DNA of 64,000 nt from Agarophyton chilense (lineage: Eukaryota; Rhodophyta; Florideophyceae; Gracilariales; Gracilariaceae). The DNA is taken from positions 1,116,001-1,180,000 of the forward strand of contig JARGXX010000129.1 of assembly GCA_030374765.1 (NCBI GenBank). Reading direction: 5' to 3'. The notes beneath the pieces are model-generated. The model was not told where the DNA came from and did not search any database. It was given only the letters and a program-made list of their open reading frames with translations. Shown here in pieces: positions 415-58,719 of this stretch. Position numbers and translations under genes: made by a program. How positions within the stretch are numbered: the stretch's first letter is position 1; each line of letters begins with the position of its first letter.

Positions 415-2097
415 ATGGATCCGAACGCCGGGTCCAACCCGTTTCAGCCCTCCTCTGAGGATGTGCCTTCTGAAGCTCCGTCCAACACTGCTGGTTCTGC
501 GTCGCAGCCTACTGCTCAACTCGGTCCATACTGTTCGTTCCCCACACCGTTCACCGGATTCCGGTCGGTACCGTTACCTCAGCCAACCGTGCCTCCGATG
601 CCAAACGCGGCTTACGTCGCCTCTGCGGGTGTGATTCGAGCTCCTTCTCGTCGTGCTCAGCGGAGCTACCCGCACCCTGCTGATTTCTATGGACGAGATC
701 CTCTCAACAACGTTGAACTTTTCGCGCAAGCGCCCTGGTTTGATCCAGTTGTTATCCGCGATGACGCGTTGATGCAACAGTATGTACACGGTGGGTACTT
801 CCCTAACGGTATTCCGGAACACGCGATTTATAGCGACGACTGGGCGAGCCATATTGCTTTGCCAGACAACGCCATTGCGCGACATTCAACGGAAGCCTTG
901 TCCGAAGCCCGTACACGGTTCACCAAGCTGATTTACCAGCGTCTTCAACGATTTATCAGTACGGTTCTCCTCCTGTAGGACTGGGAAATAGATACCTGGA
1001 AAGCCCGTATCGACGTTGAAGGTTACTCGTATATCGAGACAATCGTTGAAGTCGATGTTAGCGGTTGGCGCGGTGTGCGCGGTGTGCGTGATGCAGCTCT
1101 CTGCTTTCAGCAACCTCTTCTCCGTGCGGAGTTCCGCTTCCTTCGAAAGCGTGACATTCCCTATTGGGATTATCCCCGTTGGGAACGTCGTACTCGATCA
1201 CGTTTGGGCTATTTGGTGCCGTATCAAATGATCGAGATTGACCGCATCCGGCGGAACGCGCGCTTCGGGCGCTAAATCGGTATTCCGGAGCATTGGGCGG
1301 CGATCGAGAGTCCTCGTGGTTGCCCTGTGGAGCTCCCACCGGCGATCTCCTACATCGGGTCCGCGTTGGTTAACGACCCGTTCTCGGGATATTGGACGGT
1401 TGTTTATACCGAGTTTATCGCCAAGATGGCCGTCTTCCTCCTGTGGGATGCTTATGATACCTTTAGAGTTTGGTACATGTCGCCCACAGCGCGAAAGTAT
1501 GCGAGAGAACTCGATCTTTCCCTCGTCCTGGGATCCCGTGCGAACCTTGCCGACTTCATCCATCTTGTGGATTTGATCGACAGTGTCGATTGGTCTGGAG
1601 TGCCAGCTGATCAATCCGCTCGCGGAACCCGTGCAAGACTCTACGACCATTCTCCTGGACGAACAGCAAGTGCTGGAGATTTCGTTTGGTACGACCCCTG
1701 GACGCGCCAGTTGATCACCTCCGAGCAGGCTCGCTTTCTTTGGGAGAACCTGGGTGACATGCCACCGAACCAGCTTACTGGATACGTGTACGATAGTACT
1801 CCATCCGAGAACGGAGAGGAACCGTATGAGGAAGCACCGGGAGCTGAGGCTGAACTCGATTACGAGGACGAGCCAAAGCTGGTAGGCGTAGCGACTTCCG
1901 TCGATCCATCCGCATCGGCGGGAGTTGCTCAAGAGTACTCTCATGGGTTTATCCAACAAACGAGTGCAGTGCCGGTCGAAGATCCAGGCTTGGATCCGCT
2001 GAGGCAGTTCCTCTTAGATGCGGGCTTTCCCCTTGACCAAGTTGAGGGTGATCGCGCACAGCTTCTTGAAAACCTGCGTGCTCGCACGTCTCTTTGA
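415..2097 (+). pseudogene. antisense ORF of element A (unknown protein, two in-frame stops)
   Basis: About 560 codons in a single frame, opposite to gag-pol, beginning next to the 3' LTR. I chose the ATG at 415 (MDPNAGSNPF) because element E starts similarly (MNPYVLNPL); an earlier in-frame ATG lies at 271. Stops at 976-978 (TAG) and 1273-1275 (TAA) break an otherwise open frame. Clear homology to the antisense ORF of element E: APWFDPVVIRDDALMQQY here and APWFHPTAVRDDELIDSY there, ELPPAISYIGS and ELPPCIYYIGS, LLWDAYDTFRVWY and LLWDAHDHFRIWY. The C-terminal part is acidic and ends in a short motif (LRQFLLDAGFPLDQV) also similar to E. There is no signal peptide, no convincing membrane segment and no recognised domain. 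Function unknown. Confidence 0.8.
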
Positions 2098-2455
2098 TAA
2101 TCCTAGAAAAGACTCCTAGTCAACACCCTTGCGATGATATCTTGATACCAATAAACTCCGGTGACTTCGTGTCTTCACGTTCCCTTCTTATCTTCTAGTC
2201 TTCATCTCTTCTCGCTTCTCGAGTTCTTAACTTCTTCTTCTCGTTTCTCGAGTTTCACACTTCCCTTCTCATCTCTCGGGTTCTTCAATCATCTCTTCTC
2301 GCTTCTCGATTTCTTCAATCCTTCTTCTCGCTTCTCGAGTTTGTCCTAGGTGATAATCAGTAAATATCCTGGGCTTGCGTGTTTTCACGTTTCTTCCACA
2401 TGACTTCTTGTTTTCTTCTCGCCTTTCGAGTTTTTACTACCTTTGTAGCCCATAC
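2098..2455. repeat. degenerate tandem CT/GA-rich repeats between convergent ORFs
   Basis: Five or more degenerate units of roughly 29 bp, each built around CTTCTCGCTTCTCGAGTT, fill about 2205-2345, with another unit near 2410. The strand that is sense for gag-pol is purine-rich (GAGAAGCGAGAAG). This is the zone where pol and the antisense ORF converge. Element E has a GA-rich tract in the same place. There is no gene here. Confidence 0.7.
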
Positions 2456-9629: not shown

Positions 9630-9647
9630 TTCTAAGTCGGGAGACCA
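9630..9647 (-). other. primer-binding site of element A
   Basis: On the minus strand TGGTCTCCCGACTTAGAA begins 2 bp after the 5' LTR end. It would pair with a tRNA ending TTCTAAGTCGGGAGACCA. The same 18 bases follow the left LTR of E. Confidence 0.85.
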
Positions 9648-9649
9648 CT

Positions 9650-10315
9650 TGTAGTATCCGCTCTAACGGAGAGAGCAGACACCTGCGACAGCGTTCGGAC
9701 TGCCGATGGGTCGCTTGCGGCGAAGGAAAAGGGGTGGTAGAGCTACAACACCAGCGAGCTGGAAGTGGGGTGTAAGGCCATTACTCGCCAGCGGGGTGAA
9801 CAGTGCAGCTGTAAAACGTTGAGGGAACGTAGGTACGAGACGGCTCATGAAGTGGTTGGGGGCTGACTATCTATTATAGCTCGTCCGGATCTCCGGTTAG
9901 GGAATCCTAAGCGAGGAACAGAATAGTCATGATGCCCATGTTGTCTCCTTTACTTGGAGTCGGCGCTCACCTCTGGTGCACTATATACTGTATGCCAGGG
10001 TAAGTGCCCAAATAAGTATATAAATAATACCCAGTGGTCAGCCGCTTAGCCAAACCACTGTATGGGTATGGTCCCTAATGGACGTCTAGCTACAAAGGGT
10101 AGTAAAACCAGCCACGTGGATCGCCACTACATGCGCCGTTGCAAGCCAGTCCACTCGTGATACCACGTGTTCCACTAATGTACCCTGCCTCCTGGCATCC
10201 TACGCGGTGTGCCGTTTCATATCACAAGTTTGATGACATCACTCACTTATGAGTTCCAACCGCGACTTCGCGAAAAAACAACCCATCGGACTCCCCGACA
10301 TAGTAAAATACTACA
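9650..10315 (-). repeat. 5' LTR of element A
   Basis: 666 bp with TG...CA ends on the minus strand (TGTAGTATTT ... GGATACTACA). It is nearly the same as the solo LTR at 45281-45947. It contains an AT-rich stretch (about 10000-10040) that could hold the promoter. It is directly followed on the minus strand by the primer-binding site. Confidence 0.93.
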
Positions 10316-11404
10316 TTCGGGGTTGAATTCTCGGTATCAATGCTGGTAAAAAGGTTTCCAACAGCATTATTTGTTGAGTCTTCTGAACTTGACGTCATTA
10401 TTGTCTTCTGTTCTTTCTTTGATGTTGAAGAATGTGTCGACGTCCTCGGTTTCTGAGGGATCTTCATCCTGTTCGCATGGTTCGTAAAGTACCTGCTTCA
10501 GAGCACGGTTTTGATGGGATTATTGCCTGGATTTCTGATAAAGCTGGACTTTTCTTGCAGCGATGGCGGCTGAATTTTTTGGATGCCGACAATATCACAA
10601 GATATATCCTTTTTCACCCCAGTTGAAGCAAGTTCTCCCATTCATTTTAGGCTTCTTATTTTTCTTATGGCGGCCATATCTAGCAGGAGGAAGATAGGGT
10701 TTCGATGAAGACTGATAGAGAACATCTGCGGATTTTGAATTTTTAGAGAACTTGAATACATTAATTGATTTTCGTTCGTTACCCTCTTCCTTTTCGGGCT
10801 GAATAGCACATTCTAGCTATGTGTAGAATTCTCGATAGGAAAGGGTTTCTGATTCCCGTCGGCTAATTGGATTACTAGCCCATGAATGTCCAATAACTGC
10901 TTTCTTAAGATAAAATATCTTGTTTGCATCAGTACGGAAATGCGGTGGACCTTGAGCAGCTAATTTTGATATTTTCGAATCCAATTTGTCAATGGCCTGA
11001 GTTGCAGTTGCAGTATATTCTTCCGCTTGGAAAGTATCAATTTGCATGTTCATTAAACGAATTTCAATGCGCTTCTGTTTAGAGGTGGAATGAAAATGTG
11101 ATTCAATAAAGTTCGTAGCATCAGTGAGAGATTGAGCTTTTTGAACAACATGTTCATTGAAGAAACGCTTTGCATTATCCCTTAGAATATTATGCATAAG
11201 CTGAACATGTTTGTAATCAGGTATCCTCGAATCTTCTAATGCGATACGATATTCGATCCATCCAAGATTCTCCAATGGCTCCGGAAAACTTAGAATTCTT
11301 GCCCTTGAAACGCATTGCCAGATTTTGTGAGACCTTTGGAACATCTATGTTATTAGTGCTCACTCTGATCGTTTGCGAAGGAATAATATACTGATAATTC
11401 ACAG
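10316..11404 (-). pseudogene. gag: relic gag of an older, probably copia-like retroelement
   Basis: The minus strand reads a gag-like protein: FKGKNSKFSGAIGESW, then MHNILRDNAKRFFNEHVV and LTDATNFIESHFHS, then FYLKKAVIGHSWASNPISR. A decayed zinc knuckle (CFNWGEKGYIL*YC) follows at about 10589-10630. A frame change near 11217-11260, the knuckle Cys-to-Trp and His-to-Tyr changes and stop codons show it is long dead. The sequence is clearly more AT-rich than the gypsy elements. Element A cuts its C-terminal side and B2 cuts its N-terminal side. The copia-like label rests on remembered resemblance of the gag pattern and is less certain than the gag call. Confidence 0.6.
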
Positions 11405-11850
11405 TGTAACGAAATGACTGGTGGGTCAGCGTACGGGTCTCGACCGGTGGTAGCGTGGTAGAGCGGGTCCTAAGGTTCGAATCCTTGACGGCGGCACTCC
11501 CAGAGTACTTGGTGCAATGGGCTGGAGTTTACTGTGTAGTCCTATAGGTTGGAGCTACCAAAACGATGGCTTGAAGACCAATTGGTGGAACTAATATACC
11601 AAAGGAAGTTATTTAGTATCCTAACGGTGCCTTCCTTACTCTAAGGGAGAAGCGTCACTCGAGCCAAGTAAATAGTAACGGCAAGGCGCTGGAATCTCTC
11701 TGGAACTGTAATGCTAATCTATAACACTAATTAAAATAGAAAGATAATCTTAATCAGTCCAGCTGAGGTTGGACAGTCCACGTGGTATCTGTTAGTTCTC
11801 TCAGGGCCCGGCGGCTTACAGGGCTCAACCGTTATCGTTGCTTCTTCACA
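11405..11850 (-). repeat. 3' LTR of element B2
   Basis: 446 bp that match 29197-29634 and 31333-31783. Ends are TGTAAC at 11405 and CTTCACA at 11850, so TG...CA on either strand. The plus strand carries GGTTCGAATCC at 11474-11484, an exact pol III B-box type sequence. Confidence 0.92.
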
Positions 11851-12286
11851 TATCTCCCTCCTTAGGATTCGACCGTCACTGCGAAGGGCAGATGGCCTCA
11901 TGATTTACCCAGGGAGCACAAGCATTTTGTTGCTCCCAGTACCACTGGGGGTGACGGGAAGTGGGGTCGACATCACCTGCGGGGGTACGAGGCAGCGTGA
12001 GACAACCATTGGCGCCAGGGTGGAAATTAATTTTCCTAAGGACTGAAACCCCAGCGCGCCGTGAGCGCTGCCCATAGGTGCATCGCCGGTGCATTCCTGC
12101 AGTCGCGTTGCTGAGATGGTCGATTGGCTTCCTCTCTTTTAACGGTCATTGGGGCCTTCCTTGGTCTCCGTTCTTTCGTTAGCGACCCTCCGCGCTTCTT
12201 CCACCGTGGTTCACGTCTGTCAGTCCGCTCGGGTCAATTCCGTCACTCGTCTTCCCATCGTGGTACTTTTTCATTGGTCGCACGCG
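11851..12286. other. polypurine tract and leader of the B2 antisense ORF
   Basis: 11851-11866 is the complement of a purine tract (AAGGAGGGAGATA) that precedes the 3' LTR on the minus strand. The following 420 bp have no supportable ORF and form the 5' leader of the plus-strand antisense ORF. The same leader occurs inverted at 28762-29180. Confidence 0.65.
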
Positions 12287-14369
12287 ATGCCGAACTCGTC
12301 TCATAAGCCCGTTGGATACTCTATTCTCCCTCCGGACTATGTCGCTTACGTCGGCTTTCCTATCCACTTCCCAGCGGACCACCCTGTGGACAGCGGCACC
12401 ATGGCTTCGAACAACCAAGCGGGGTGCTCCTCGGGATACCAAGTGGCCTACGAACGTTCCGGGGACCGCTATGACCATACAATCGGACGAAACCCGCGGG
12501 CAGTGCGTCATGCAATTTCTTACGTCCTTTGTGGAAGAATACCAAACGTTCTGCCATATGCATCTCGAAGCCCGGAGGTTCGCGACGATACCCGATTTCC
12601 GGAGGGTCAGTAAGAACGCGCGCAGCGTCTTGTGGTACAAAAGGTGGCTACATTGTCCTATGGATCCGCGTTCGACAACGCGCTGTCGCACTCTCATCTA
12701 AGCTGAAATCCCGTACGTCCGTTGCGAGGGGGAAGCCGAGTACCAGTTCAGGGTGAACAAACTCCTTTCGGACCTATACACGGACTTCATCTCGCCTCAT
12801 GTGAGTTTTCTTCTGGCGGGTTAGAACCTCTTGGCGCTCATGTACTTTCGACCGCCATATGAACTCCTGTTCTGGATATCCAATAGGGTCTGTCGGAACG
12901 AGATGCACGAGCCCGATGGTCGTTTACGTCAATCCCTGGAGTTCTTCTTCTGCTGGCAAAAGGTAGAGTTTCACGACATGAGTGCCGACAAGTGTCCTCC
13001 GTTATATCTCTCGTTGCCCCGTGCGGATGAGAACCAACGGGCCATGTACTGGCTTGTCTCACCGCTACTTTTGGTCCCCACGCCGTCCGTGATGGCGTTT
13101 AATTCGTCCCAACTCATGGGTGACGACAACGATCGAAGGTCTTGGTTGTGCTGGCAGGTAATCTTCGCTGAGTTTAGCCTGATGTCCCTTATGGGCTTCC
13201 TGGATACCACGAAATACTGCGTCCGTGGTAATGTGCGTTCGGAGGATTGCAGGATAAGGTATGACGAGAACCTAGGCATTTTTCGAGGTCGCCTAATCTC
13301 GCTCCTGGACATCATGATCCGCTTCCTAAGGAACCTGGGCATCCAGAATATCTTCCGTGGTACCAAGTTCGACGTCTAGGAGACCGAGGCCCTTTTTGAT
13401 CATGTTCTACAGGTGGAATGGCGCAAGACTCCCTGGTTCCTTTGGTATGACCACGATTCCGACTCGTTCGCGCCGATTCCACTACATCCGCAGGGTTGGG
13501 ACGACGCTCGCGCCTATCCCGCCAAGCCTCTGAGGAATTATCCATCGGACACCCCGAGGCGTCATGTGACCCACTATTACCCGAAGGCCATTGGTTTTGA
13601 TCCCCTTTGCTTCGAGCCTGATGTGGAAGCCACGTCGTTGGTTCCCGCTGGTATATACGATGGAGAATCCTTCGGTGAAGATCCCGTCGTCCTACCCGTC
13701 GAGGGCGTTAATCCTCCGGTCGACTCCGCTGTTGTGTTGCCGACCGCTTCCCCTCCCCCAGCTCTTCCGGGCGTTGCTTCTCAGGGTAAACTCTCCTGTG
13801 AGCCGCCCATTTCCCAAGTGGACATCCCTCCTGGCAAGGTTACTGTCGAAGCCGAAAGACCTGTAGGTGATGCGCTTGCTCAAACGTCCACTGGGGGCGT
13901 CGACATCGCTCCGTGCTCTGCGTTGCTACGCTTTCCCGCTTCGGTCCCGGCCGCGGCTTCGGATCTCCATCATTTCTGCCGTACCATTGGTATTACGGCC
14001 TTAATGGACATTGCTACAATTCTGAGGGAAGCTTGCTCCTGTGCGCGTCACTTGGCGCGCTACGCCGCAGTTGTCCAACAGGGTCAGGATCTGAAGACCG
14101 CCATGGCCAATACCCTGCAGCAGAATGCCCAAGTGATGTCCCAGAGGATTGCTACCGACTTGGATGCCCGGTATGATTTAAATTTGAGCGACCGGGATGC
14201 TTCCAATGGTGACAATAGTTCCTCAGGTGACTCTCCGCCAAAGAAGCGTGCTCGCCTCGCTGGGGCCGGTCCTAGTGGTTCAGTAGGTTCCTTGGGTGAC
14301 TCTAGTCCCGGTTTCGCCTCTGCAGGTTCCAATGAGGACGACGGAGTTACTCCTGCGCCACCCCAATGA
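12287..14369 (+). pseudogene. antisense ORF of element B2 (unknown protein)
   Basis: About 690 codons opposite to gag-pol. The start is ATG 12287 (MPNSSHKPVGYSILPP), which lies in the context CGCGATG also seen in A and in B1. The frame changes around 12500-12700, TAA occurs near 12700 and TAG at 13377-13379. The last 318 codons (13413-14369) are open. Visible motifs: YVRCEGEAEYQFRVNKLLSD, PPLYLSLPRAD, VPTPSVMAFNSSQLMGDD, LGIQNIFRGTKFDV and VEWRKTPWFLWYDHDSD. A Pro/Val-rich linker, a helical segment (CARHLARYAAVVQQGQDLKT) and a basic PPKKRARL stretch, a plausible nuclear localisation signal, come near the C-terminus. It is homologous to the antisense ORF of C and more weakly to A and E. No known domain recognised. 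Confidence 0.78.
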
Positions 14370-14520
14370 GTCCTGTTGGTGTTAAGAGCGCTTTTGCGAA
14401 CCTTGAGGTCATGGAGGGGGCTTTCAGGCTTCTGTTAGTTAGTCAAATTAAGTGATGCTTGTGCTTTCCAAAGATGGTTCCGGTATCTCAAACGTGCGTG
14501 CCCCGGGACGTCGTCAAAAC

Positions 14521-16110
14521 TTAAGAGCGTCTCAGCTCTTCCTTAGGTGTTGCCGAAAACTGGCTTTGTTCCCTGATGCGGGCACTCTGGCGATCTGTCG
14601 TGCGCCGGCGAACCGTCGTGTTAGGAGGCGTTTCGAGAGGCGTTTTGGGATTATTTGGGCCAATAGCTGCCCCCTCCTGAAGGCTGCGCTCCGGGCTGCC
14701 GATGTTGCGCCAATAACGGGCGATAAAAGTAGCCGGAATGGTTTGAGGCTCTTGCCAAGTGTCTTCCTCAGGTGTGTAGCCGAACCAACGGACGCGATAG
14801 CGCAGCGTTCCATCTTCGCCCCGACCGGGGGAGATGATGCGCTCAATCACATATTCCGGTTGGTGTTCATTCTCCGGAAGCAGAGTGTGGTCCAGAGGCG
14901 CGAATCCATCAGAGTAGGTTTGTAGAGATGAGGCATAGTAGTTGGCGTCGACCATCGGTTCCGTGGGGCTAGTCGAGTCCGCGGGAGCTGCCTTAGGGAA
15001 TGTGGAGACTTGAGCGTCGACCTGAGGTTGTGGAGCTTCCGTTGGGTTGGGGGGCTAGGACTTTGGTGGTCCGGAGGAACTAGGAGCTCGTGTCACGCGG
15101 TCAATAGAAACGGTGTCCTGTAGGCCGTCAACTAGTAACGTGATGGTGTGTTCATTGGACTTAAGAACTTTGTATGGTCCCGTAGAGCAAGGTAAGAACT
15201 TCCGCGTAATGTCCTCAAGTTTCTCACTTTCCTTCGGTGGCCGGTCCAGGTAAACAAGTTTTCCTTTCCCAAAGGTCGGTGTGTTCGAGATGGCTTTATC
15301 GAAATTGTCCTTTTATCGCCGTTTGGTTTTGGACAGTACAGCTCTAGCCGATTGGATAATGCGGTCGATGCGTCGGCGCGAGTAGCGCTTAGCCTGGGTA
15401 GGAGCCATTCCTTCGGTTAGTTCATGGGGTTTGATAGATTCCTGAAGGTAAACAGCTATCGGCGGAGTCGATCTCGTTAGCGTTAAATCGAAAGGCGTTG
15501 TCCCTGTGGAAGCGTGCACTTGCGTGTTGTACGCCTAAACCAGAGGCTCAACGTAGTCGTCCCAGTCGAATTGGTGCTCCGATACGTAGTGTGCCAATTG
15601 GTCCAGAATGGTGCAGTTGAAGCGTTCGGCTTGGCCATTTGCCTGCGGGTGGTACGCCGTGGTGTTCACATGTTTGATTCCTAAGGTAGCACAAACGTGT
15701 GAGAACAATTTGGATACAAACTGGCTGCCGTTTTCCATGAGGAGGTACAGTGGCATGCCATATGGAGATACCCAGTGAGACAAGAAGGCTGTGGCGACAT
15801 TCGTGGCTGTTGTCGTTGCTAGTAGTAGGGCTCGTGAGAGTTTGGTAAACCTATCGGTTGTGACCAAAATAAACCGTTTCCCATGAGACGACTTAGGCAA
15901 AGGGCCAAGTATATCCATTGCGGAAATTTTTATCGGATTTGCGGCGCGGAAGAGCTTCAAATTGGCCTGATGGTTGGCGCGAGACCCTCCGATTTGTGCG
16001 CACGAAGTACAGTTCCGTGTGGTTTGCCATCGGTCTTGAGCCATAAATGGCCAGTAGAAGAACTTCCTTAGGGTCTGGTACATTCGTCGGCCTCTAGGAT
16101 AACCAGCCAA
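14521..16110 (-). pseudogene. pol: pol B2: integrase and chromodomain
   Basis: 15535-16110 encodes the integrase: FFYWPFMAQ, CTSCAQIGG, then AMDILGPL (first catalytic Asp), LLMENGSQF (where the second catalytic Asp would be, replaced by Glu) and QANGQAERFN (catalytic Glu). Stops at 15535-15537 (TAG) and 15313-15315 (TAA) are shared with B1. At 14521-14955 in the same frame is an intact-looking chromodomain: EYVIERIISPGRGEDG, LRYRVRWFGYTPEEDTW and IPATFIARYWR. The interval 14956-15312 is the linker, with the GPYKVL integrase C-terminal motif readable. Confidence 0.87.
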
Positions 16111-17885: not shown

Positions 17886-17963
17886 GGTCTGGTATTCCCT
17901 GAAGAGATCAAGTACCTGAGGCCTATAAAATTCGAATTCTGCGCCGGTAGCGACTGTCCCTTA

Positions 17964-44740: not shown

Positions 44741-47665
44741 CTAGAAGGGGATCTGTAAAAGAAAAGGATCTGATGGCGCAGAAGCAGAGACACTTGCCAG
44801 ATTGGCAACCTGGCGGTTGGCCAGTTGGTACATGTCCAAATGGAACTGGTTCCGCAACTCCCCAAGTCGGTTAAGCGCCTTCATGTACTGCGCCTGGCGC
44901 GGCAGCAAACCTTCAGGGAGCGTTAATGCAGCAACCACGGAGGTAGGCCCAGCCCTCTGAAAGTTGGTGACGCAAGACTGACGAATTCGAGCCAGAAGAC
45001 CGACCACGGCCGGAGAATCCATCAAAGGTTGAGGCAGAGAACGAGCAATACCCACCAACAGAGGTCGAACCGGACCAGACACCCGCGAGGAGCTCGGTTG
45101 AGTAGGAGTCACAGCCGTAGGGATACGCGACTTTCGACCTTGAGGTAACGGCTCGGACGGGAAGGGACCAGCATAAGGATCAACTGGTGTCTCCACAGTA
45201 CCGTGATAAGGCTCAGGGCTCGCGGGAGCTCCATAAACAGGAGGCTCCCCGGGATAATATTGGGCGTGGAGAGACACAATTGTAGTATTCTACTATGTAG
45301 GGGAATCCGATATGTTGGTTTTTCGCGAAGTCGCGGTTGGAACTCATAAGTGAGTGATGTCATCAAACTTGTGATATGAAACGGCACACCGCGTAGGATG
45401 CCAGGAGGCAGGGTACATTAGTGAAACACGTGGTATCACGAATGGTATGGCTTGCAACGGCGCATGTAGTGGCGATCCACGTGGCTGGTTTTACTACCCT
45501 TTGTAGCTAGACGTCCATTAGGGACCATACCCATATATTGGTTTGGCTAAGTGGCTGACCACTGTGTTTTGTTTATATATTTATTTGGGCACTCACCCTG
45601 GCACACAGAATATAGTGCACCAGAGGTGAGCGCCGACTCCAAGTAAAGGAGACCACATGGGCATCATGACTATTCTGTTCCTCGCTTAGGATTCCTTAAC
45701 CGGAGATCCGGACGAGCTATAATAGATATTCAGCCCCCAACCACTTCACGAGCCGTATCGTACCTACGTTCCCTCAACGTTTTACAGCTGCACTGTTCAA
45801 CCTCGCTGGTGAGTAGTGGCCTTACACCCCACTTCCAGCTCGCTGGTGTTGTAGCTCTACCACCCCTTTTACTTCGCTGGAAGCGACCCATCGGCAGTCC
45901 GAACGCTGTCGCAGGTGTCTGCTCTCTCCGTTAGAGCGGATACTACAACAATCTCCCAAGTTGCGGGATCGAAAGCCTCCCAACCTTGATGGGAATCCCA
46001 ATGGTAATTCTTGCTCTGCTCGAGATACGAGTCCAAATCCTTCACGGTATAATCGGTCCCCTGAACGATGTTCTTGTAACCAAATCGGAGAATATCCTGG
46101 ACAACCCTCGGAGATATGAAGAAGATGTGACCTACAGGTTGAACACCATGTCGGTATATGTCAGAGTCGGGATTACGACAATCCCAATCGATACCGTAAC
46201 GGGCGGCCTCCAGAGCCAGGATGGCAACCAACACGGTCCACTTCGAGAGGGCAATTGACCAAATGAGGTAATACCGTTCAAGGTTACGGGAGATCTGACT
46301 CCCGAAGTTCGCCAAAACCGGCGGAGTGAGCACGCTCAGCGACAACGGAACCTCATAGGACTCCCACCAATCTGGTCGAAGCACGTCCCAATCGCGTTTA
46401 CCCTTCGTAGGTTGTGAGAAGTGCTCGACGTTATGAAACATATGCATAACGCGAGTGTTAGAGTTGCGAGTGCAAACGCGACTCTCCGTCGCTGCATCCT
46501 CGCCCCACCTACTACGGTCAGCCCAATTGATAGTGGTGAAAGGCCGATTCAGGGAAACCAAGTCAAATGAAACCGGAAGGTAAGTCTCCGGAATAGACGG
46601 GTACTGGCACACTTGCGCCATCAATCGAAGGTAATAATCCAGCTCCGGTTCGATTCCCACATCCGGCAAGTCGCTCGGATATATCGGCGGGATGAAATAC
46701 CTCAAAGTTTTATGACGTTGCCGACTCTGGAAACATTCCAGTCGACCCTGACGAGGTTGAGACTCTTGGTCCCGTTTCTTCAAGAGCAAGGGAACGGAGC
46801 GAAGGCGCTCGCAGTCCCCACGGGACAAACCCAAGTAGGTATCCAATTGTGGTCTGGTAAGAGCTGCCGGAAACGACGAATTACCCACTGCCACAGGCCA
46901 ATCGTGCTTCAACAGGTCATTGTTCGTCACCTGGTCGAAGGTAATACCAAAAGGTCCATACTGACTCGTCGTCCGGTTCGCCGCACCGAACGCGAGATTG
47001 TGAGCCCAATTGGTTGGGGTCGTCGAAGGAAGTCCACCACTGCGTTAGTACGGGTCAGCCGGAGTCCCAGGGCAGAACTCAGTCGCAGGGACAGGCTTAC
47101 TGCGAAACCGAATGTTGGTAGGTGTTCGCGAAGTCAAGCGAGGTGCCCTCTTGGTAATACCACCGCTTCCACGGCCACGAGATGGGCCGCTACCTGACAT
47201 GTTTGGGAAGGCCGTAGCTCGACCCGACGAACGAGGTGATGACTCGACCTCCATTGCTGCGGTGAACAACAGCGGGTATTCATCCTTCTGAAATAGAGCC
47301 TCCTCGGTCCGTTCTGAGGAGACGGCCAACGGATCCAACCTTTCCGGTAGTACCGAAACTGACCTTTCGGGTACAAAAGTGGCCGGCGTGCGATCGCAAG
47401 TGGTTCCAGACCTTTTAGGTATCGTGGAGCGGGACCAATCCGACCTTAAAGGCATAACTGCAGGGGTATCAATCCCCTCGGAATCGCCGACTTCTTCAAC
47501 CTCAATGGTAACCGGCATCTCACGTCTCTCGAGCGCTGGTGCTTTTTGTAGGGACAACCCACCCCTTCGAGGTATCGGTGACGAATCCACGATGCGGCGC
47601 GAGGTGCATTGACGTGGCACCGAATGGGTTCGAACGCTTGCGTGGAAGCGGCGCGATCCTGTCAT
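44741..47665 (-). pseudogene. antisense ORF of element C (unknown protein), split by a solo LTR
   Basis: Reads right to left from ATG 47665 (MTGSRRFHASVRTH). It consists of a basic, Ser/Pro-rich N-terminal region with an SGPSRGRGSGG stretch, one TAG near 47045, then an open 340-codon core (46930 to the insertion), the A-family solo LTR, and a C-terminal 178 codons to 44741. Without the LTR the frame joins exactly (TWEIV to SLHAQYYPG). Matches to B: DLPDVGIEPELDYYLRLM with DMPYVRCEEEAEYQFRVN, LTPPVLANFGSQISRNL with VPTPSVMAFNSSQLMGDD, and FGYKNIVQGTDYTV with LGIQNIFRGTKFDV. About 750 codons without the insertion. No known domain. Confidence 0.8.
45281..45947 (+). mobile_element. solo LTR of family A
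   Basis: 667 bp with the same TG...CA ends as 9650-10315, inverted relative to that copy. It is flanked by ACAAT at 45276-45280 and ACAAT at 45948-45952, a perfect 5-bp target duplication. No internal element remains, so it arose by LTR-LTR recombination after insertion. Confidence 0.97.
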
Positions 47666-48059
47666 CGCCTTGAAGGTAAACCGGAATGCAAAACCGGAAA
47701 AAGGTCGCGCAATTACCGACGGGGCCGCTCAACACCAATAAGGTCTCAAAACAGGAAGCTTCCACCACGGTCCCAGGCCAACACCTCAATGGTTGTATCG
47801 ACGCAGGCTCAGGCCCCACCGGGCGCCACGAGTCATTCCTGACAGGTTAGACGAAACCCGAAAGGTCGAGAAGCCGGAAAATGGTCAGGGAATGCCGGAC
47901 AGCACGGTTACGGTCGCGACGCCGCCAATTAAGGGCAGCAATACCTGAAGGGTTGTCACTTCGTGGGAATGACCAGGCGGGATGGCGCGCGCAGGGACCT
48001 AGGAGGTAACTGAAGTTTGAGTAACCGGGAAGGGTGAGACACCAACTTGGGTAGACAGC
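47666..48059. other. leader of the C antisense ORF (left part)
   Basis: About 400 bp of element C between the antisense start and the insertion point of E. No convincing ORF. It resumes at 59855. Confidence 0.5.
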
Positions 48060-48982
48060 TGTAGAGCAACGCCCAGTTAGGGGATACTTGAAGATGCAAC
48101 TCATAGAATGAGGATTGAACCCTCCGAGGGTTATGACTATGATCCCCTCTAAGGTGTGCCGAGGTGGCACTGTTTTCTGGATAGAGTTCGCCTATGAAGT
48201 GAAGATTCGGATGGCCCATGGTTGGATTGGCCCCGTGATACACGTGGCTTAATTCTGGCACCGATTTTCGGATATTTGTTAGAACGTTGGACATTTGGGC
48301 TCTGACAGTGGGATCTCCACGTGTATGGCCCTTAGCAGGTGTGCACTACTGTAATTAGTAGAGTTTAGTTAGTGGGCCCTACTTAGGGAGGCGAGATCTG
48401 ACAGTCCGAAGCTCAGAGTATATGGTAGCCAAGGTTGGTCTTCGATACCTTTAGAGGTTCTTCGTCGCCATCGTTTCGGCCTTACAACCCGGAACGGGCT
48501 CTGGTTAGCAACGCCTGCGTAGGGACACGACTCCATTTGGAGAGTGCCCACGTTTGGGTTCCGTGCAACCACCCCCTTGGGACCGCTCAGACGACCTGTG
48601 TGCATGATACCCCGTGGGGGTTCTGCTTACTTGTTGCGTGCTTTTTGTGTTTCCTTTCGAGGACAGGTTTTCGCCCCTGTGTTGGGTTTTTTTTGTTGTT
48701 TCGCCCCTTTTCTGGTTCGCGGGTCCGGTGCTTGTTAGTGCCCGACCCTCGCCCCGTTTTTCCTCTTCGCCGGATTTTCCCCCATTCTTTGGGATACCCA
48801 TACCCATTCCCAACCCAACGGTTTCTACCCGTCACCTCCGTCGGTACTGCCGGAATTCCCCGTGGGAGTTACACCCCACACTACGGGTGGAACGGAGGGC
48901 TCTGTCTCTGAGTCTGCCTCCCCCAGGGAGCAAGGCTTCGAACACCTTGAGAGCACTTCCCGTCGCTGGGTTTTGCTCCACA
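48060..48982 (+). repeat. 5' LTR of element E
   Basis: TGTAGAGCAAC ... TGCTCCACA. A perfect stem CAAGG/CCTTG around CTTCGAACA lies at 48931-48949, 33 bp before the LTR end. Several short ORFs inside are not conserved genes. Confidence 0.95.
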
Positions 48983-48984
48983 AG

Positions 48985-49002
48985 TGGTCTCCCGACTTAG
49001 AA
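48985..49002 (+). other. primer-binding site of element E
   Basis: TGGTCTCCCGACTTAGAA, 2 bp after the LTR, identical over 18 bases to element A. Confidence 0.88.
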
Positions 49003-49210: not shown

Positions 49211-51241
49211 ATGTCGCCGCCTAGCCGTGGTTCCAGGACTGGATCGAACCGTCAAGCGGATTCAGTGCCCCCGGCCCCGCCTAGGTCGAGGAGCTCAATT
49301 CCCGAAGATCGGAACGATTCCGGTATCGATCCGGACACTCGGAAAGCACTCTCAGTGGTTTCAGGTCCTCGAGAGGTCGTGGCTGTGGGCCCAGCTCCAG
49401 TTATGGGGACCCCGTCAGCAGCACCCCGAAGTCGGGCCGACCCTGAATTACAGCGCCTAGAGACTCGAATCGATATCGCCAACGCGGCTCACGTCGAGCT
49501 CCTTCAGGAGGTTACTACCCTCCGCCGCAAGGTGGAGGACGCCCAGGTGCGGGGAGTCGCCGATGACCTTCGTACCCTGAGGAGGGATGTGAACTCCCTT
49601 TTGGAAAGCGTTGGTACCCCTGGGGTCTTTATCCAGGAGTACCGGAGCCTTGTGGAGGAACACCGCGTGCAAGCGGAACGCTTCCGAGCTCGGCTCGACA
49701 CCCTCGAGGCCATTATCCGTATGGACGGAGACACAGAAGCCTCGAAGGATAAACCCGACGTTTCGGAAAACGAAGAACACCGCTCCGCTAAACGGGACCG
49801 CCGCAAGTCCAAGAAGAGGGTTCACCTCCAAGAGGATTTATCGGATTCCGATCCCAATCGCTCGTCATCGAGTTTGTCCTCCGAATCTTCGGATAGTGAA
49901 GATGGGCGCCGGTCATCCCGGGCGACTCGGTCGAAGGCTACTTACACCTCTCAAGGGCCAATCCGTACCCGGAAGAACGGTAGGAAACACCTTGGATTAA
50001 GGGAGCTGAACCCGACGAATCCTCTCTATCGGAAGCTGCTATCGTACCGCTATTACCGGTTGGATAACCCTTCGGGAAATCGAACATCCCGCGGAACGGG
50101 TAAGGTCAAGGACTACATCAAAAGACTGAGCAGTACCCTACAGAAGAGGGAGTTCACAGGAACAGACCCAATTCTGGTGCTCGATTTCCTTGCGAGGTTC
50201 GTCCTGGAGGCTGACATCCTCGGTATGAGTGAAGCGCAAGCGTATCTTGCATTACCCTATTTCTTAAAGGGGATGGCTGGAGACCAGTTCAACTGCGTCC
50301 GTGGATCATCCCGAGCCTCGGAAGGGGGAGTCACGTGCTGGCCCGAAGCGGTGCAGTACCTCTTGAGGTCATACGCTACTGGAAATGCGATTCAGGAAGC
50401 AATCCTTGCATTAAGGGATACGCCGCAGAAGCCGATGGAAACCGAAACGGTGTATTCAACTCGCTTGGATAAAGCGTTTCACCGATGCGGGAATGTATTC
50501 TTCGCCTACGAGAGATGCACCATGTTTGTGGATGGTTTGGACCCCTCGATATGGGCATTGGTTGCCCGACATCGGGAAGAGAAGCGCAAGCTGACCTACT
50601 TGGAACTGGTTCAGTACGCCCAGGCTGAGGGGGATACTCTCCGTGCCCGGCAGAACCGAAAGAGTCGGCCGACACGTGCACTCCTCGCCGGTGGAAGTAA
50701 CTCGTCTTTGTCACTCGCAGGAGGCCCTGCCCCTGTGGGGGTCAATGATAACATTCACTTCATGGGAAGTAACCCCGAATCTATGGGTACGTCTGAGTTG
50801 CCGTCGACATCCGCTCCGACTACGGATGAAGACCATGCGCTCTATACCCAAGGACGGAGGGTGCCAGCCGCATCGCTACCTTTTGCGAATACCGCTGCTC
50901 GGTTCTCTCGCCCCGGATGGAGGGATACAGCACTACGTCGCGTGGATTCACGTCCACAACCGAACCCGGCAGAGCTGATTTGCTATTTGTGTTACCTCCG
51001 TGGTCACAAAGCACCAGACTGCACATTTCCCCTGCGGGAGGGTTCACGAATTATCGCTCAGTACGAGGCTCTGACCCCTGAGGAGAAAGCTCGAGTCCCG
51101 AGTAGGTCCTATGAGGAACAAAGGATACTCCGAGCTCACCTTGCTGACAGGGATACAGAACTTGTACCCGCGAACGGGGAACAACCGGTCCCCTTCGAGG
51201 CAGCTGCACCGAATTCGGTGGGGTCCGCTTCGAAAATCTAA
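49211..51241 (+). CDS. gag: gag of element E (intact)
   Basis: A 676-codon ORF starting MSPPSRGSRTGSNRQ (ATG 49211). Order: a Ser/Pro-rich N-terminus; a coiled-coil-like segment (LETRIDIANAAHVELLQEV, LRRKVEDAQV, about residues 78-190); a Lys/Arg then Ser/Asp-rich block (residues about 175-240); capsid-like sequence (NPTNPLYRKLLSYRYYRL, DYIKRLSSTLQKREFTGTDP, WPEAVQYLLRSYATGNAIQE); and a CX2CX4HX4C zinc knuckle at 50981-51022 (CYLCYLRGHKAPDC). It should package element RNA and form the capsid. It is the only full-length gag in the window and the reference for the broken copies. Confidence 0.94.
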   Translation: MSPPSRGSRTGSNRQADSVPPAPPRSRSSIPEDRNDSGIDPDTRKALSVVSGPREVVAVGPAPVMGTPSAAPRSRADPELQRLETRIDIANAAHVELLQEVTTLRRKVEDAQVRGVADDLRTLRRDVNSLLESVGTPGVFIQEYRSLVEEHRVQAERFRARLDTLEAIIRMDGDTEASKDKPDVSENEEHRSAKRDRRKSKKRVHLQEDLSDSDPNRSSSSLSSESSDSEDGRRSSRATRSKATYTSQGPIRTRKNGRKHLGLRELNPTNPLYRKLLSYRYYRLDNPSGNRTSRGTGKVKDYIKRLSSTLQKREFTGTDPILVLDFLARFVLEADILGMSEAQAYLALPYFLKGMAGDQFNCVRGSSRASEGGVTCWPEAVQYLLRSYATGNAIQEAILALRDTPQKPMETETVYSTRLDKAFHRCGNVFFAYERCTMFVDGLDPSIWALVARHREEKRKLTYLELVQYAQAEGDTLRARQNRKSRPTRALLAGGSNSSLSLAGGPAPVGVNDNIHFMGSNPESMGTSELPSTSAPTTDEDHALYTQGRRVPAASLPFANTAARFSRPGWRDTALRRVDSRPQPNPAELICYLCYLRGHKAPDCTFPLREGSRIIAQYEALTPEEKARVPSRSYEEQRILRAHLADRDTELVPANGEQPVPFEAAAPNSVGSASKI

Positions 51242-51243: not shown

Positions 51244-51543
51244 TTGGGAGTCTCCCCTGCGGGAGGGGCGTCTTCTAAGCCGGAGTTGAAGACGCCCGAG
51301 GCGCTCCAGCTTCGCTCCCCAGCTGTGACTATCCTTTCAAGGAGAACGGCTGACACCGACGTTAACTCGGGATACTTTAGTGTCCTCCGTCGCCCGTGGA
51401 TGCGGTCCCGTAATCTCCGTATTCCGGATCGAGTTATGGTAATGGCCAAGCGGAATTATAAAGTATTCGCCGACTTCGGCCTGTCCAACCAGTTATGGTT
51501 CGTCAAATATCTGTCCTGGATACAGGAGCCGCTCCTAACTTAA
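51244..51543 (+). pseudogene. pol: pol E: N-terminal segment before a frame break
   Basis: In the -1 frame relative to gag, this reads KTPEALQLRSPAV, LRRPWMRSRNLRIPDRV and AKRNYKVFADFGLSNQL, matching the sequence before the protease in element A (SKRNYKVYADIG). A one-base change near 51485-51495 shifts the protease into the next frame. So gag and pol lie in different frames and this copy has an additional indel. Confidence 0.72.
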
Positions 51544-53531
51544 TTCATGTTGAATTGTTACCCCCGCTGCTCCGGGTTCAAGTTCGTACCGGTCCACGTT
51601 TGGATATCGCCGATGCGAACAACAACCCGCTACGGACACTGGGTACAATTTCCCTCATGGTGAGGTTAGGCTCCTATCTCGTTCAGCTAGAGTTTATTGT
51701 ATGCAAGTCACTTGCAGCACCAGTCATACTGGGTTGTGACTTTTGCGACCGCTTCGTAGAAGCCATCCGTCCTCGGAATAGAACTGTGGAACTCGAAGAC
51801 GGGTCTACGATTTCAATCGTTCGTAAACCCTTACAGGGAGCAGCGCGAACACGCGTTCCTCTCCCTGTCGCGCAGGAATCTGTGAAGAAGGACCCGGTGT
51901 CTACACGGGTAAAAGTTGCGAAGTCAGTGGCTATCCCGCCAGAAACCCAGGTTTCGGTCACAGTTGTTACCAAGCAAATTGGTGTGCATGTGGTACAACC
52001 GAACCCGTCTCTGTATACGCGGCGTCAACTCGCCCTTGCGAATGGAATTGTCTCCGTGGAACCGGATAAACCTTTCAAGGTTTTGGTAGCCAACTTTGGG
52101 AAGACAACGCAGCATTTGGTCAAACACCAGATCCTGGGTTCTGTTCTTCCACACCCGCATGCAGTCGTACCTACAAAGATCTCTATCGCAGAGGTCCTTG
52201 GTGTGGCGGACCCTAAGGAGGGGGAGGACACTGCCGAAACCGCGAAAGACGGTGAGCATACGACTGCAGCTCCACACGCTGAACACTTTAAACCTCAGGA
52301 GGTTACCGCCCCTATCACAGGAGCAGACCAGACGGATCCTGTTCAGGAATTGGAGAAATGGGATCTCAACCATGTACCCGCATCTCATCGGGAGAAGCTG
52401 AGGCACATGCTTCGTGAATTCACCCCCATGTGGGATGGTTCCCTTGGAACTATTGGGATTACAGAACACCGCATCGACTTGTTACCGAACACTCGGCATA
52501 TTGCCCAACACCCTTACAGGGCTGGACCGAAAGCTCTGGAAGAGGAGAAATCTCAGGTGGAGAAGATGCTTAAAGCGGGCGTAATTGAACCTGCCCAGTC
52601 CGCTTGGGCCTCACCCGTGGTGTTAGTTCCGAAACCGGATGGATCGTGGCGTTTCTGCATCGATTACAGATGCCTGAACGAGGTAACCATTAAGAATGTG
52701 TACCCGATCCCTCGGATGGACGAATACATCGACTCCCTTGGGAGCGCTACTGTTTTCTCTACCCTCGACGCCAATTCGGGCTACTGGCAAGTCCCTATTA
52801 GGGAGGAAGATCGAGACAAAACGGCGTTCGTGTGTCATCAAGGACTTTTCCGATTCCGGAGGATGCCTTTTGGGTTGACAAATGCCCCCGCAACCTTTCA
52901 ACGGGCAATAGACATTCTGTTGGCTCCCTTCAAGTGGAGGACGTGTCTAGTGTATTTAGACGACATTATTGTCTTCTTCAAAAACCTGGATGACCACCTC
53001 GAACACGTCAGGGACGAAATGAAGATACTCCGCGACGCGGGAATCACCTTGAAACTCAAGAAGTGCGAGTTTTTCACCGATTCGGTTAAGTATCTGGGTC
53101 ATATCGTCCGTCCCGGACAGCTTTCAATCGATGAAGTGCGAGTGAAATCCTTGAAGGAAGCAAAACACCCGAAAACTCAAACGGAGTTGCGATCCTTCCT
53201 AGGTCTGTGTAACGTGTATCGCCGATTCGTCCCGAACTTTGCGGATATTGCCACCCCCCTCAACAGGCTCCTGACGAAGGGACAACCAGTTGAACTGGAA
53301 CCTTTTGGCGACGCGGAAGCGTCTGCCTTCACGGCACTGGTGAATGCCGTAACATCACCGCCAATCTTGGCTCTACCCAATCCTGGGCCCCCTTACGAAG
53401 TGGACACCGATGCTAGTGCAAACCAAGTAGGGTGTGCACTGTTCCAATCCTCTGAGGATGGCGAAGGTCACCCTATTGGGTACTGGTCTCGTTCCCTGAA
53501 TGTCCATGAAAGGAACTACTCGGTCTGCTAG
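51495..53531 (+). pseudogene. pol: pol E: protease, reverse transcriptase and RNase H (first part)
   Basis: A 678-codon open stretch. Protease VLDTGAAPNLI starts about 51516, second strand VILGCDFCDRF. RT: VVLVPKPDGSWRFCIDYRCL, YPIPRMDEYID, LDANSGYWQVP, MPFGLTNAPATFQR, catalytic YLDD at 52953-52964. Connection LRSFLGLCNVYRRFVPNFA, then RNase H VDTDASANQVGCALF. It stops at TAG 53529-53531 inside YSV.EKECLAVVW (expected Glu), and the same frame continues. All PR and RT catalytic residues are present. Confidence 0.93.
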
Positions 53532-54179: not shown

Positions 54180-55775
54180 ATGGCATTCGATTGTTACGCC
54201 GTCATACGAGCCTGCGCCAATTGCGCCAAGAATGACGTCAAACTTCGGAAGCACTCTAAGAAGTTGACGCTGTTCCCGGCACGGGCTCCACTCGAATTCA
54301 TGGCCATAGACATCCTAGGGGAGTTTATCAGGACGCCCCGAGGTCATCGGTATCTGCTTGTCATTTCTGACAGATTCTCTAAGCTAACGAGAACTGTGCC
54401 GCTGAAGCGGATCACCGCCGCTACCGTCGCGCAAGCGTTCGTGACCCATTGGGTGTTCGTATATGGACCGCCGGTGCAGTTTTTATCCGACAACGGAGGG
54501 CAATTCGCATTAAAGTTCTTTCAGGATGTATGTCAAATCCTTGATGTAAGGAATTTATTTGTTACTACGTATCACCCTCAGGGGAATGGCCAGGTGGAGA
54601 GGTTTAACCGCACGATACTCAACGCTTTGAGATCGTATGTTGCGGATCACCCCAAAAATTGGGACTTGTACACAGACGCTATCACGTATGCATACAACAC
54701 CCAGGTACATCGGGTTACATCGTTATCCCCATTCGAACTGGTACTGTCGAGGACACCGCCGCCGGTCGCCATCGAGGCTCAACCGACGCTGTCGACGTAC
54801 TCATCACCGGGATTGTACCGAGAAGCCTGGAAGGAGTGGCTTACGAAGATGGTGCCGATAGCCCGGAAAGCAATGGACAAAGTTCAACGCGCCTACAAGA
54901 AGGACTTTGACAATCGGGTTCGCAAACCTCTACCTCAGGTGGAGCCCGACGACTTCGTTTTCCTTCGAAAGGAATACTACACTCCTGAAAAGGAACGTAG
55001 GCAAAAGCTTTCGCCAATTGTGAACGGACCCTATCGTGTGGTTTCTGTAGACCCGGACACAGTGGTATCGGATATCGCTAACCGCCACGAACGGATCTCC
55101 AGGGACCGCATCACACGAGCGCCCAACCCAAATGTGAAAGTGGTGTCGGCACCAACGCCCTCCATAGGGGATGATTCAACGGAAGTTAACCCGTCAGGCG
55201 GAGATTCGAACACCCGCCCCGTTATACTTCCGCACCCGGAACGTGGTTTAACCGACCTACCGGAAACTTCGGATACTCCCGAACCTGGGCCCGCTCCCTC
55301 AAGGGCCCAGTCAACGAACTCTTACAGAGTTACTCCCCCACCGGAGGTAATCAAGCCTCCTGGCTCTCCGCCTAAGGAGGGGGAGGAGGACTTAGTTCCT
55401 TCGCAGGACGATGTTTCGGCGTCAGCCAGTCGCCCTAACAGGGAATCTAGTTCTCACAGTGAGACAGCGAGCCCGACCGAGCCGGCGACAGAGAAGTCAC
55501 AACCCCAGCGTATGGGTAGCGACATTACCGCCGACCCAGCCGAGCACGACGTCAGAAAAGATAACGAAACCCCGCCTAGGGAGAGTCCTGTGGAGAACTC
55601 CGCACCCGGAACGCCTACAGAGCCGACGATCACCCGCCGCCGCGGACGAGACACTGAGGTGTCGCACACTCAAACCCCGCTTTATCGGGAACGAGCTGTG
55701 TCAGCGGACCCACACGGGGAAGATCTCGACGACGAGGTTGACCAAATTGGGCTCTCCGTTATGGAATGGGAATAG
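54180..55775 (+). pseudogene. pol: pol E: integrase core, C-terminus and tail
   Basis: CANCAKN completes the zinc site. The DDE core reads FMAIDILGEF, VQFLSDNGGQF and GNGQVERFNRTILNALR; then YNTQVHRVTSLSPFELVL, NRVRKPLPQVEPDDFVFL and the GPYRVVSVDPDTV motif. A tail of about 200 residues is rich in Pro, Ser and Glu and predicted disordered. It ends at TAG 55773-55775. The chromodomain follows about 600 bp later in the same frame. Confidence 0.92.
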
Positions 55776-56300: not shown

Positions 56301-56591
56301 GTGTGTCTAGACCCTACGTTGACACCCTCAAGGGAACTAGAGCGTTCCAAGATGGAAGAGAAGCCCGAACAGGGAAAAGTGTACCCGCAGGAATTCGTTA
56401 TCGATTGCATCGTGCGTCACATCTACACCCCCGAGGGAAAAGCTCGCTACCAAGTCCGATGGTACGGATTCTCGCCTGATGAAGATACAGTGAAACCCAT
56501 TGAGCACCTTCCGAGGTCTAAGGTTTTATCCTATCACCGACGCGCTTGGGTAACCTTGCCTCCAAGTCTGGATCGTGCCCAAGTCGGGTAA
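56301..56591 (+). pseudogene. pol: pol E: chromodomain
   Basis: In frame with the integrase ORF but separated by further stops (55776-56300). It reads EFVIDCIVRHIYTPEGKA, YQVRWYGFSPDEDT and VKPIEHLPRSKVLSYHRR. The usual Trp after EDT is replaced by Val. The position at the far end of pol is the same as in A, B and C. Confidence 0.82.
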
Positions 56592-57084
56592 GCCACCACG
56601 GGAACTGGTGTGGATGGCACCTCGAAGTGAGGAAGATGTTGGACCTCTGAAGAGGAATTGAGGAGAGTATCCCGAAGACCACGTATTGAGAGGGAATGTC
56701 TACTGGCCCTCGGCCTAGCGCCGTTAACCGGGGAACACAGCACCGGTTATCGGGACAGTTTATGATGAAAAAGGAAAAGAAGACCCACGAAGTGGAGAAG
56801 AAGATTAAGAAGAAGATTGGACCCTAGGAAGGGAAGAAGATGAAGACGAAGATAAAGAAGATCTTAAGAAGGAATGAAGAAGATGAAGTAGAAGTTAAGA
56901 TCCTAGGAAGGAAGAAGACAAGAAGTTATGCAAATATCAGAAGTTTACTATTGTCGCCAAGCTATGGACTCTACAATTGCCCGAAAGCGGAACTACGGAA
57001 AGCCCGAGGAGGGACCTGCCCCATCGTTGGGATTCTGACCCTGATGGTACGCCGAGGCGAAAGCCAACATCTGGCTCACATCCG
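56592..57084. repeat. GA-rich convergence region of element E
   Basis: About 56760-56940 is almost pure purine on the gag-pol strand (AAGAAGATTAAGAAGAAGAT and similar), with CCTAGGAAGG repeated twice (about 56822 and 56912). It lies between the pol end and the antisense ORF end, as in element A. No gene recognised. Confidence 0.65.
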
Positions 57085-58719
57085 TCATACCCAGGGAATC
57101 GGAATGCCCGCGTTCACGAGGCATTGTCGCACACTATCCGCTTGCGGAGTGGCAACCGGCGCCTGCGCAAGGGTGTTCACACCCCACCCGGGGGGAGCAG
57201 ATGGACCGCCACCGGATGCATTCGCCGCCGCAGCTGAGGTCGTCCCCACTGGTTGGAAGGGTGCAGATGGCTCCACAGGGAGTACTCCACTAGGAGCTGG
57301 CATGTCGTTATCCAACGCTGGATCGTCCAGGTCTACTGGAGGCTCGTACTCGTAATCGTCGGTATAAATGAACCCCGTCGGGTGTCCCACCGGCATCGGT
57401 CGAGGCGAGTCCATCAGCGCCCGTGCTTGCGCCGCGCTGATGCGAACCCCTTCGAAGGGATTGTAATAGACCTAGTTACCGAAGCCCGGATCGTACCGGC
57501 CAGGAGACTTGTCTCGCGCGGATCCTTCCCCTGCGGGCTGATTTTCCACTGGGACTCGATCCCATTGGGTGTTGTCGATCACGTCCAAGATTGGATACAG
57601 GTCATGCACGTTGCTGACCGAACCCAACGCTGGGACAAGGTCGATCGGACGCATGATGGTCCGTAGCATCGGAGGAATATACCAGATACGGAAATGGTCA
57701 TGAGCATCCCAGAGGAGGTGCGCCGCTACGCGGGCTGCCCACTCGGCTGCAACGAGGGCCCAGTATCCCGAGTTCGGGTCGTGCATCAAACGAGAACCGA
57801 TATAGTAGATGCACGGGGGAAGTTCAGCAAAGCACCCTCGGGGGACCTCGACCTTACTCCACCAAGCTGGAAGGGACACGAGTCGCCCAACCTTCGCCGT
57901 GTTACGGATACGCTCCAGTTCCACGTAAGGATACGGGACAAGGAGCCCGAAACGGGAGCGCGAGCGGCGCTCGAAGCGCACGCGTCGATCGAACCCATAC
58001 TGGGTAAACTGCCGTTGAAGGTACCTGAATTCAGCCCGAAGGATGGGACGACTCCATTGGAGCATATCTTCTCGGAGAGGAAAACCCGGTCCGCGGAACT
58101 CGGCTTCGGGAAAGGCTGCCAGGTTATCCCCGTAGGAGACCTCACCGTACGTGCGGTAATAGGCGACATCGAACCCGTACTCTGGGGGAACCAGATGGTC
58201 AAAGCGTGACCTCTCCAATCGCTGGTAGGCCAGAGCTGCCATCGCTGCGCGCGCCTTGTCCAGGGACTCCCCGCGACCGCGGTATACATACTGAGGCTCT
58301 ATGGCTACCCGCACCCTCCAATCGGGAGAACGTACAACCTCGACAGGTAGGCCACCCGGCAATAAGCCGTCCTCCTCGTAGGAGTCGATGAGCTCATCGT
58401 CGCGAACCGCTGTCGGATGGAACCACGGAGCGCGGGAATATATTACCGGATCGGTAAGGGGACTCCACCTTCGAAAGGATTCGTTTGAGATCCAACCTCT
58501 GGAGTTTGCTACCAAGGGCATCACATGAGGGGAGTTCCACGCCACCGCGTTAATGTCCAAATCCTCCTGAGGATGTCGGTTGCTCGCCGAGGCGGAAGGT
58601 TCGGTACCTGACGGAGCCGCATGCAAACCGGAGAAATATCCACCCTGCTGCGGAGCTTCGTTGTCCGCCGGCGCGGAGGCCGATGGCCCCGAGAGTGGGT
58701 TGAGGACGTATGGGTTCAT
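57085..58719 (-). pseudogene. antisense ORF of element E (unknown protein, one in-frame stop)
   Basis: From ATG 58719 (MNPYVLNPLSGPSAS); an earlier in-frame ATG is at 58887. Open for about 415 codons to TAG 57472-57474, then open again to 57085, about 545 codons in all. Aligns with A along its length: APWFHPTAVRDDELIDSY, ILRAEFRYLQRQ, RSRFGLLVPYPYVELERIRN, ELPPCIYYIGSRLMHDP, LLWDAHDHFRIWYIPP, then VYYNPFEGVRISAAQAR and SVRQCLVNAGIP after the stop. The N-terminus is low complexity (Ser, Ala, Pro), the core helical and aromatic-rich. No signal peptide, zinc finger or enzyme motif is visible. Confidence 0.84.

Follow-up and report, generated by a model that had tools for sequence, protein, structure and literature searches.

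Antisense accessory genes of long terminal repeat (LTR) retrotransposons have been described mainly from flowering plants, as far as the accounts consulted go, and their function is unsettled. In maize Grande (gene23) and rice RIRE2, the overview in PMC7264820 places such a gene between pol and the 3' LTR, and for Grande it reports a promoter of its own upstream of the gene and a nuclear product. In the Retand lineage of plant Gypsy elements, antisense open reading frames (ORFs) for TRP28 (PF04195) are reported from 97% of the clusters (PMC11963269), and a regulatory role has been proposed for both the GENE23 and the TRP28 proteins (PMC7264820, PMC11963269). An earlier note on the DNA studied here, made from the sequence alone, named plant Tat elements as the carriers of antisense extra ORFs; this is right for plants but incomplete, since the fungal Gypsy element Boty of Botrytis cinerea carries the antisense gene brtn (PMC7264820, PMC8365987). 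Here we describe a gene of this kind from the red alga Agarophyton chilense, in a stretch of 64,000 nucleotides (assembly GCA_030374765.1, contig JARGXX010000129.1, positions 1,116,001 to 1,180,000 of the forward strand; hereafter the window), where all four Gypsy families present (A, B, C and E) carry a long ORF antisense to gag-pol, between the end of pol and the 3' LTR. The gene is real, under selection and shared by the four families, and its product is a new protein family within a known kind of antisense 3' gene.

The strands and the start codons given by the earlier note, at 415 (A, +), 12287 (B1, +), 47665 (C, -) and 58719 (E, -), were recovered. Its description of uninterrupted ORFs of 545-750 codons did not survive, as every copy in the window is broken. 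The A gene (415-2097, +, in an element on the - strand) has two in-frame stops over 262-2094; the two B copies are frameshifted (B1, 12287-14369, +) or carry four in-frame stops (B2, 26710-28761, -); and the C gene (44741-47665, -) is split by a solo LTR of the A family (45281-45948, +). The E gene extends from its likely start codon to the family frame end at 56995 (56995-58719, -), rather than to 57085 as had been noted; the window copy is open for 480 codons, down to 57475, and has three in-frame stops over the 640-codon frame of the family. Between the end of the chromodomain and the antisense stop lie about 410-450 bp in A, C and E; for B1 the distances are about 340 bp to the chromodomain and about 150 bp to the end of the pol frame. 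No overlap with pol is seen, because the antisense stops in A, B1, C and E lie beyond the readable end of pol. A tandem array of a 29-bp unit (2205-2341) lies in the spacer that separates the pol end from the antisense stop in A.

Intact frames were found in copies elsewhere in the genome. Searches of the 79.76-Mb assembly (135 contigs, including the window) gave 1783, 2014, 791 and 1481 first-look candidates for E, C, B and A, out of which at least 90 E, 115 C, 125 B and 141 A copies were scored; by hand count, 49 of 90 E matches have no stop inside the matched stretch. Counted from stop to stop, the 640-codon E frame is intact in 10 of the 30 loci fetched, and an eleventh (L028) is open for 689 codons. 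Among the ten A loci, which had been picked for long open frames, nine (L061-L066 and L071-L073) are open for 611 codons and the tenth for 607. Frames of 839, 842, 856, 861 and 876 codons occur in 5 of 30 C loci, and frames of 698 and 748 codons in two of the seven B loci. From base composition, the chance of such an open frame is 1.4e-9 to 5.8e-14 per start.

The codon statistics bear out the selection argued for in the earlier note and identify it as purifying, both between families and in the core of the protein. The ratio of nonsynonymous to synonymous substitution rates (dN/dS) was calculated from open-frame copies only (10 of 30 E loci, with L028 left out, all 10 A, 6 of 30 C and 4 of 7 B loci), giving 0.43 within B, 0.58 within C, 0.63 within E and 0.80 within A. 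Between families, the proportions of nonsynonymous (pN) and synonymous (pS) differences were 0.504 and 0.778 (saturated) for A-E, and 0.562 and 0.734 for B-C. The pN/pS of the true frame was the lowest of the six frames for A-E (0.65) and B-C (0.77), with 16 pairs each in the wrong-frame control, as well as within B (0.48) and within C (0.60). Along the E protein, dN/dS stays near 1 in the first two segments (codons 1-65 and 66-176), falls to 0.28 and 0.45 in two segments that span codons 177-442 and cover most of the core, rises to 1.3 over the next 100 codons and ends at 0.56; the middle of the protein is therefore the part most visible to selection. Because of this profile, ATG 58719, which the earlier note had also chosen, is more likely to be the translation start than the upstream ATG at 58848.

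The homologous pairs that had been proposed, A with E and B with C, are real (36% identity over 479 residues and 24% over 392 residues, respectively), and so is the motif suggested to link all four families. In a four-sequence BLASTP comparison, C-E (2.9e-5) and A-C (1.6e-4) were also linked, while A-B (0.73) and B-E (0.22) were not. Alignment of the joint A+E profile with the joint C+B profile by hhalign scored 60.9 over 141 columns, compared to a mean of 17.5 (standard deviation 2.8, maximum 28.4) for 200 column shuffles and 21-22 for reversed profiles. On full-length alignments, scored without shuffles, the single pairs A-B (22.9) and B-E (19.4) were weak. Core profiles with more B copies, each set against 60 shuffles, scored above all shuffles for A-E (296), B-C (82), C-E (41.5), A-B (33.7) and A-C (33.4), but not for B-E, whose 19.3 did not exceed the shuffle maximum of 20.8. 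B is thus tied to A and E mainly through C, since the B-E pair alone is undetectable. Locus L079 was left out before alignment: in it (3-710), a single open frame joins a B-type antisense core to RNase H sequence of pol, a fusion that presumably arose through inversion or recombination.

The linking motif (LPP.I.YIGS / VPTP.V.AY.GS) forms the centre and best-kept part of a domain of 140-180 residues. A putative second motif, similar to aromatic-D/N-P-or-W-x-T, was read by eye about 115-118 residues past the first in all four families, and MAFFT left it unaligned across families. Conservation of the antisense protein is comparable to that of the other element proteins: A and E share 66% identity in pol, 42% in gag and 36% in the antisense product. 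They are also the closest pair in two fixed stretches of the reverse transcriptase (94 and 66 columns; 75.5% and 65.2%) and in the antisense core (45.8%).

Together, these data make it close to certain that the ORF is a protein-coding accessory gene of the elements. In the simplest account, a gene convergent to pol would have been held since the common ancestor of the four families, following one ancestral acquisition, with the order of B and C left unsettled. It would have its own transcription, driven either by the adjacent 3' LTR or by a TATA promoter located between the polypurine tract and the ORF, and we consider such independent antisense transcription somewhat probable. Of 30 E copies, 24 have a TATAWA site 146-148 nt ahead of the likely ATG, with no other such site in 600 nt, and in 21 it reads TATATATA (in the window at 58860-58867, -, upstream of ATG 58719); 8 of 10 A copies have TTTATA 125 nt before the matching ATG. 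As sequence motifs, these sites are suggestive of an antisense promoter. The product might be a nuclear factor whose central domain (about 180 residues) is conserved and whose flanks are under weak constraint, and it would bind nucleic acid or chromatin and regulate expression or integration of the element; a basic motif, KKR[AT]RL, lies near the C terminus in 6 of 7 fetched B loci, and the C protein has an RG-rich stretch (RGRGRGG). The role as a nuclear regulator, akin to the regulator or nucleic-acid-binding factor that the earlier note had considered, is put forward tentatively. We give roughly even chances to the whole proposal, namely, an antisense accessory coding gene of a chromodomain Ty3/Gypsy lineage with its own transcription and a nuclear regulatory product.

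Several observations weigh against this proposal. The TATA region of E is no more conserved than its flanks, and the net charge of the protein is acidic in A, B and E, which counts against a simple nucleic-acid binder because it is not typical of one. Searches of Pfam, NCBIfam, PHROGs and PDB gave no match to a known domain or fold. The AlphaFold models were unusable, with a mean predicted local distance difference test (pLDDT) score of 33 for full-length E (575 residues, 30 sequences) and 38 for the B core (235 residues, 38 sequences), and this low confidence is probably due to the shallow alignments. In addition, the true-frame pN/pS is not distinctive within E (0.63, compared to 0.61 for one reverse frame) or within A (0.81, compared to 0.73-0.96 for the wrong frames); these weak within-family values can be explained if the differences among near-identical copies arose largely after insertion, as is probably the case. 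Lastly, the pairing of B with C over the full-length antisense protein is not mirrored in the two stretches of reverse transcriptase, where B and C are the least alike of all pairs (57.4% and 48.5%); nor does it show in the antisense core, in which B resembles C (24.6%) no more than C resembles E (26.3%). The mismatch may stem from uneven rates or from families having exchanged sequence; our preferred explanation, which does not hinge on the branching order, keeps its odds.

A search of IMG/VR by pattern returned 162 and 61 matches, with no relative of the protein among them. An E3-binding domain (PF02817), weakly resembled by residues 68-83 of the translation of 1276-2094 in A, is no more than a lead: it scored 13.5 bits against a cut-off of 23.7, was listed for 5 of 38 members with a best E value of 0.0099, and had no support from PDB.

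The same data bear on four other accounts of the ORF. Long frames could be an artefact if the GC-rich codons of the other strand forced a shadow ORF open, and the strand opposite the gene does hold secondary frames as long as 271 codons. No sense gene is seen there in E, C, B1 or A, as the readable pol ends earlier, and the long frame is the antisense one, whose codon statistics rank best, both from family to family and inside B and C; given these statistics and the intact long frames in genome copies, we rejected this account, whose probability is close to nil. A useful product could instead be the antisense RNA, which would pair with the gag-pol transcript and limit it or feed silencing, with the frame incidental. 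The location suits convergent transcription, and a role of this kind is among those discussed for plant antisense ORFs in PMC7264820, but it would not account for frames of 600-870 codons that stay open in many copies, nor for codon-position selection and protein homology that persist between families at identities (22-36%) at which synonymous differences have almost reached saturation. We therefore consider it improbable.

The gene also occupies the place of env, between pol and the 3' LTR, so that an env-like structural or cell-entry protein in an unusual orientation may be envisaged. This is highly improbable: the gene is on the antisense strand whereas env-like genes are expected in sense orientation, there is no domain match, and the E, A and B proteins lack a convincing membrane segment (maximum Kyte-Doolittle mean over 19 residues of 0.93-1.36, one protein each), with only C reaching 2.09, in a single hydrophobic helix inside the conserved core. 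Finally, it is conceivable, though improbable, that the elements carry as a passenger a captured host gene or what is left of another mobile element. The lack of relatives in the searched libraries favors such an origin, and gene capture is known in LTR elements, according to PMC7264820; nevertheless, the same place in all four families and a core under selection make a recent passenger unlikely. An ancient capture turned into a working gene of the element would be compatible with the accessory coding gene that we prefer.

With regard to the elements themselves, E is nested in C and separates the body of C from its 3' LTR. The LTRs of C (5', 37161-37725, +; 3', 60157-60721, +) are 96.8% identical and those of E (5', 48057-48983, +; 3', 58927-59853, +) 97.3% identical; in A, the 5' LTR lies at 9649-10316 (-) and the 3' LTR (1-247, -) is cut by the window start. 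A near-perfect target duplication of 5 bp, read by eye, borders element E (ACAGC/ACAGT, 48052-48056 and 59853-59857). Pfam recognizes reverse transcriptase, RNase H and integrase in E, and gag, reverse transcriptase and RNase H in A. The gag ORF of E (49211-51241, +) has no Pfam match of its own but is 42% identical to that of A, which matches PF03732; it is followed by reverse transcriptase with part of RNase H (51495-53531, +), with a protease-like DTGA motif upstream, and by the integrase ORF (54180-55775, +). The mark of chromoviruses, a chromodomain at the C-terminal end of the integrase, is present in E (56394-56540, +; PF00385, E value 2.6e-6, 27.7 bits) and in B1 (14707-14853, -; 2.2e-8, 34.3 bits), both above the Pfam cut-off of 25.1 bits. 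It is weak in C, where a chromodomain-like stretch (44192-44302, +), also read as the domain by eye, stays below the cut-off (0.0089, 16.4 bits), and broken in A, where a remnant with stops (2525-2680, -) was read by eye only and its open piece of 31 codons has no Pfam match.

After their 5' LTRs, A (9630-9648) and E (48984-49002) share a sequence like a primer binding site, TGGTCTCCCGAC..., which looks to be complementary to the 3' end of a tyrosine tRNA. Because a 13-mer of it occurs 601 + 581 times in the genome, compared to none for the reversed control, elements of the A/E type are abundant. B1 and B2 (12807-19759 and 21319-28272) form a 7-kb inverted pair that is 96% alike, while the outer flank of B1 (11405-12777) and a fragment at 29635-31485 match B2 at only about 84%; perhaps B2 was inserted inverted into or beside an older B element, with gene conversion thereafter. 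Closely spaced matches on opposite strands with near-equal scores, found in the match tables of B, A and C, also lie at C120 (137900-138859, -, and 145288-146247, +), C68 (1137616, -, and 1141229, +) and C95 (131068, -, and 137200, +), which suggests that inverted pairs recur in the genome. Elsewhere in the window, 32001-36000 has a local GC content of 0.40, compared to about 0.5 in the rest, and no ORF of 250 codons or more, and 63385-63999 is a fragment of a host gene with a tRNA-dihydrouridine synthase domain (PF01207) that runs off the window. In the genome as a whole, nine light-harvesting proteins (PF00504) scored above the cut-off; the single one compared with PDB has its best match in 7y5e chain 72 (E value 1.1e-68), a structure from the red alga Porphyridium, as would fit a red-algal host, and some of its other high matches carry cryptophyte names. 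Hydrophobin PF01185 and PF20152 had no match in the genome, and neither had the controls.

A search of titles and the beginnings of abstracts, which took in few subscription papers and no Repbase, found no red-algal antisense ORF, which speaks only weakly for novelty; looking up terms in PMC2864245 (Tcn1-like chromoviruses) and PMC6431247 (giant transposons) likewise brought up no antisense ORF, and the part of PMC11728184 consulted names chromovirus elements as an example of additional ORFs at the 5' side in plants. For a group whose transposons are little annotated, the gene would supply a protein family with no known relatives, and its many copies with intact frames are a natural study system. 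A conceivable reading, though we hold it with some doubt, is that the family is undescribed, has a fold of its own and became fixed in a red-algal chromodomain Gypsy lineage as a regulatory gene in antisense orientation.

Retroviral antisense genes are small and overlap other genes, and the human T-lymphotropic virus (HTLV) has a nuclear protein, HBZ, that comes from its antisense gene. The gene described here differs in having about 560-820 codons and a space of its own. Two further points of likeness for HTLV are APH-2, another nuclear protein from an antisense gene (PMC11963269), and an antisense promoter inside the 3' LTR (PMC7264820), both as summarized in these sources. Among plant elements, tandem repeats in the same region, as in A here, are reported for about half of the Retand elements (PMC11963269). 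In contrast, Retand elements are non-chromoviruses, whereas chromodomains are present here, and TRP28 carries PF04195, for which no match to the antisense protein was found in our Pfam scans, in line with the earlier note, which saw no resemblance to the plant domain. Grande and RIRE2, which that note put in the non-chromodomain Tat lineage, and Boty, from a fungal host, are likened to our elements by description only, with the antisense gene of Grande and RIRE2 at the same place as here. With a selected, apparently unrelated gene in another lineage, a repeated origin for a shared reason becomes testable. If the red-algal gene does encode an undescribed family with a fold of its own, antisense genes would have arisen independently at this spot for a third time, beside plant Retand/Grande and fungal Boty, which would suggest that Gypsy elements in general need a 3' gene transcribed convergently.

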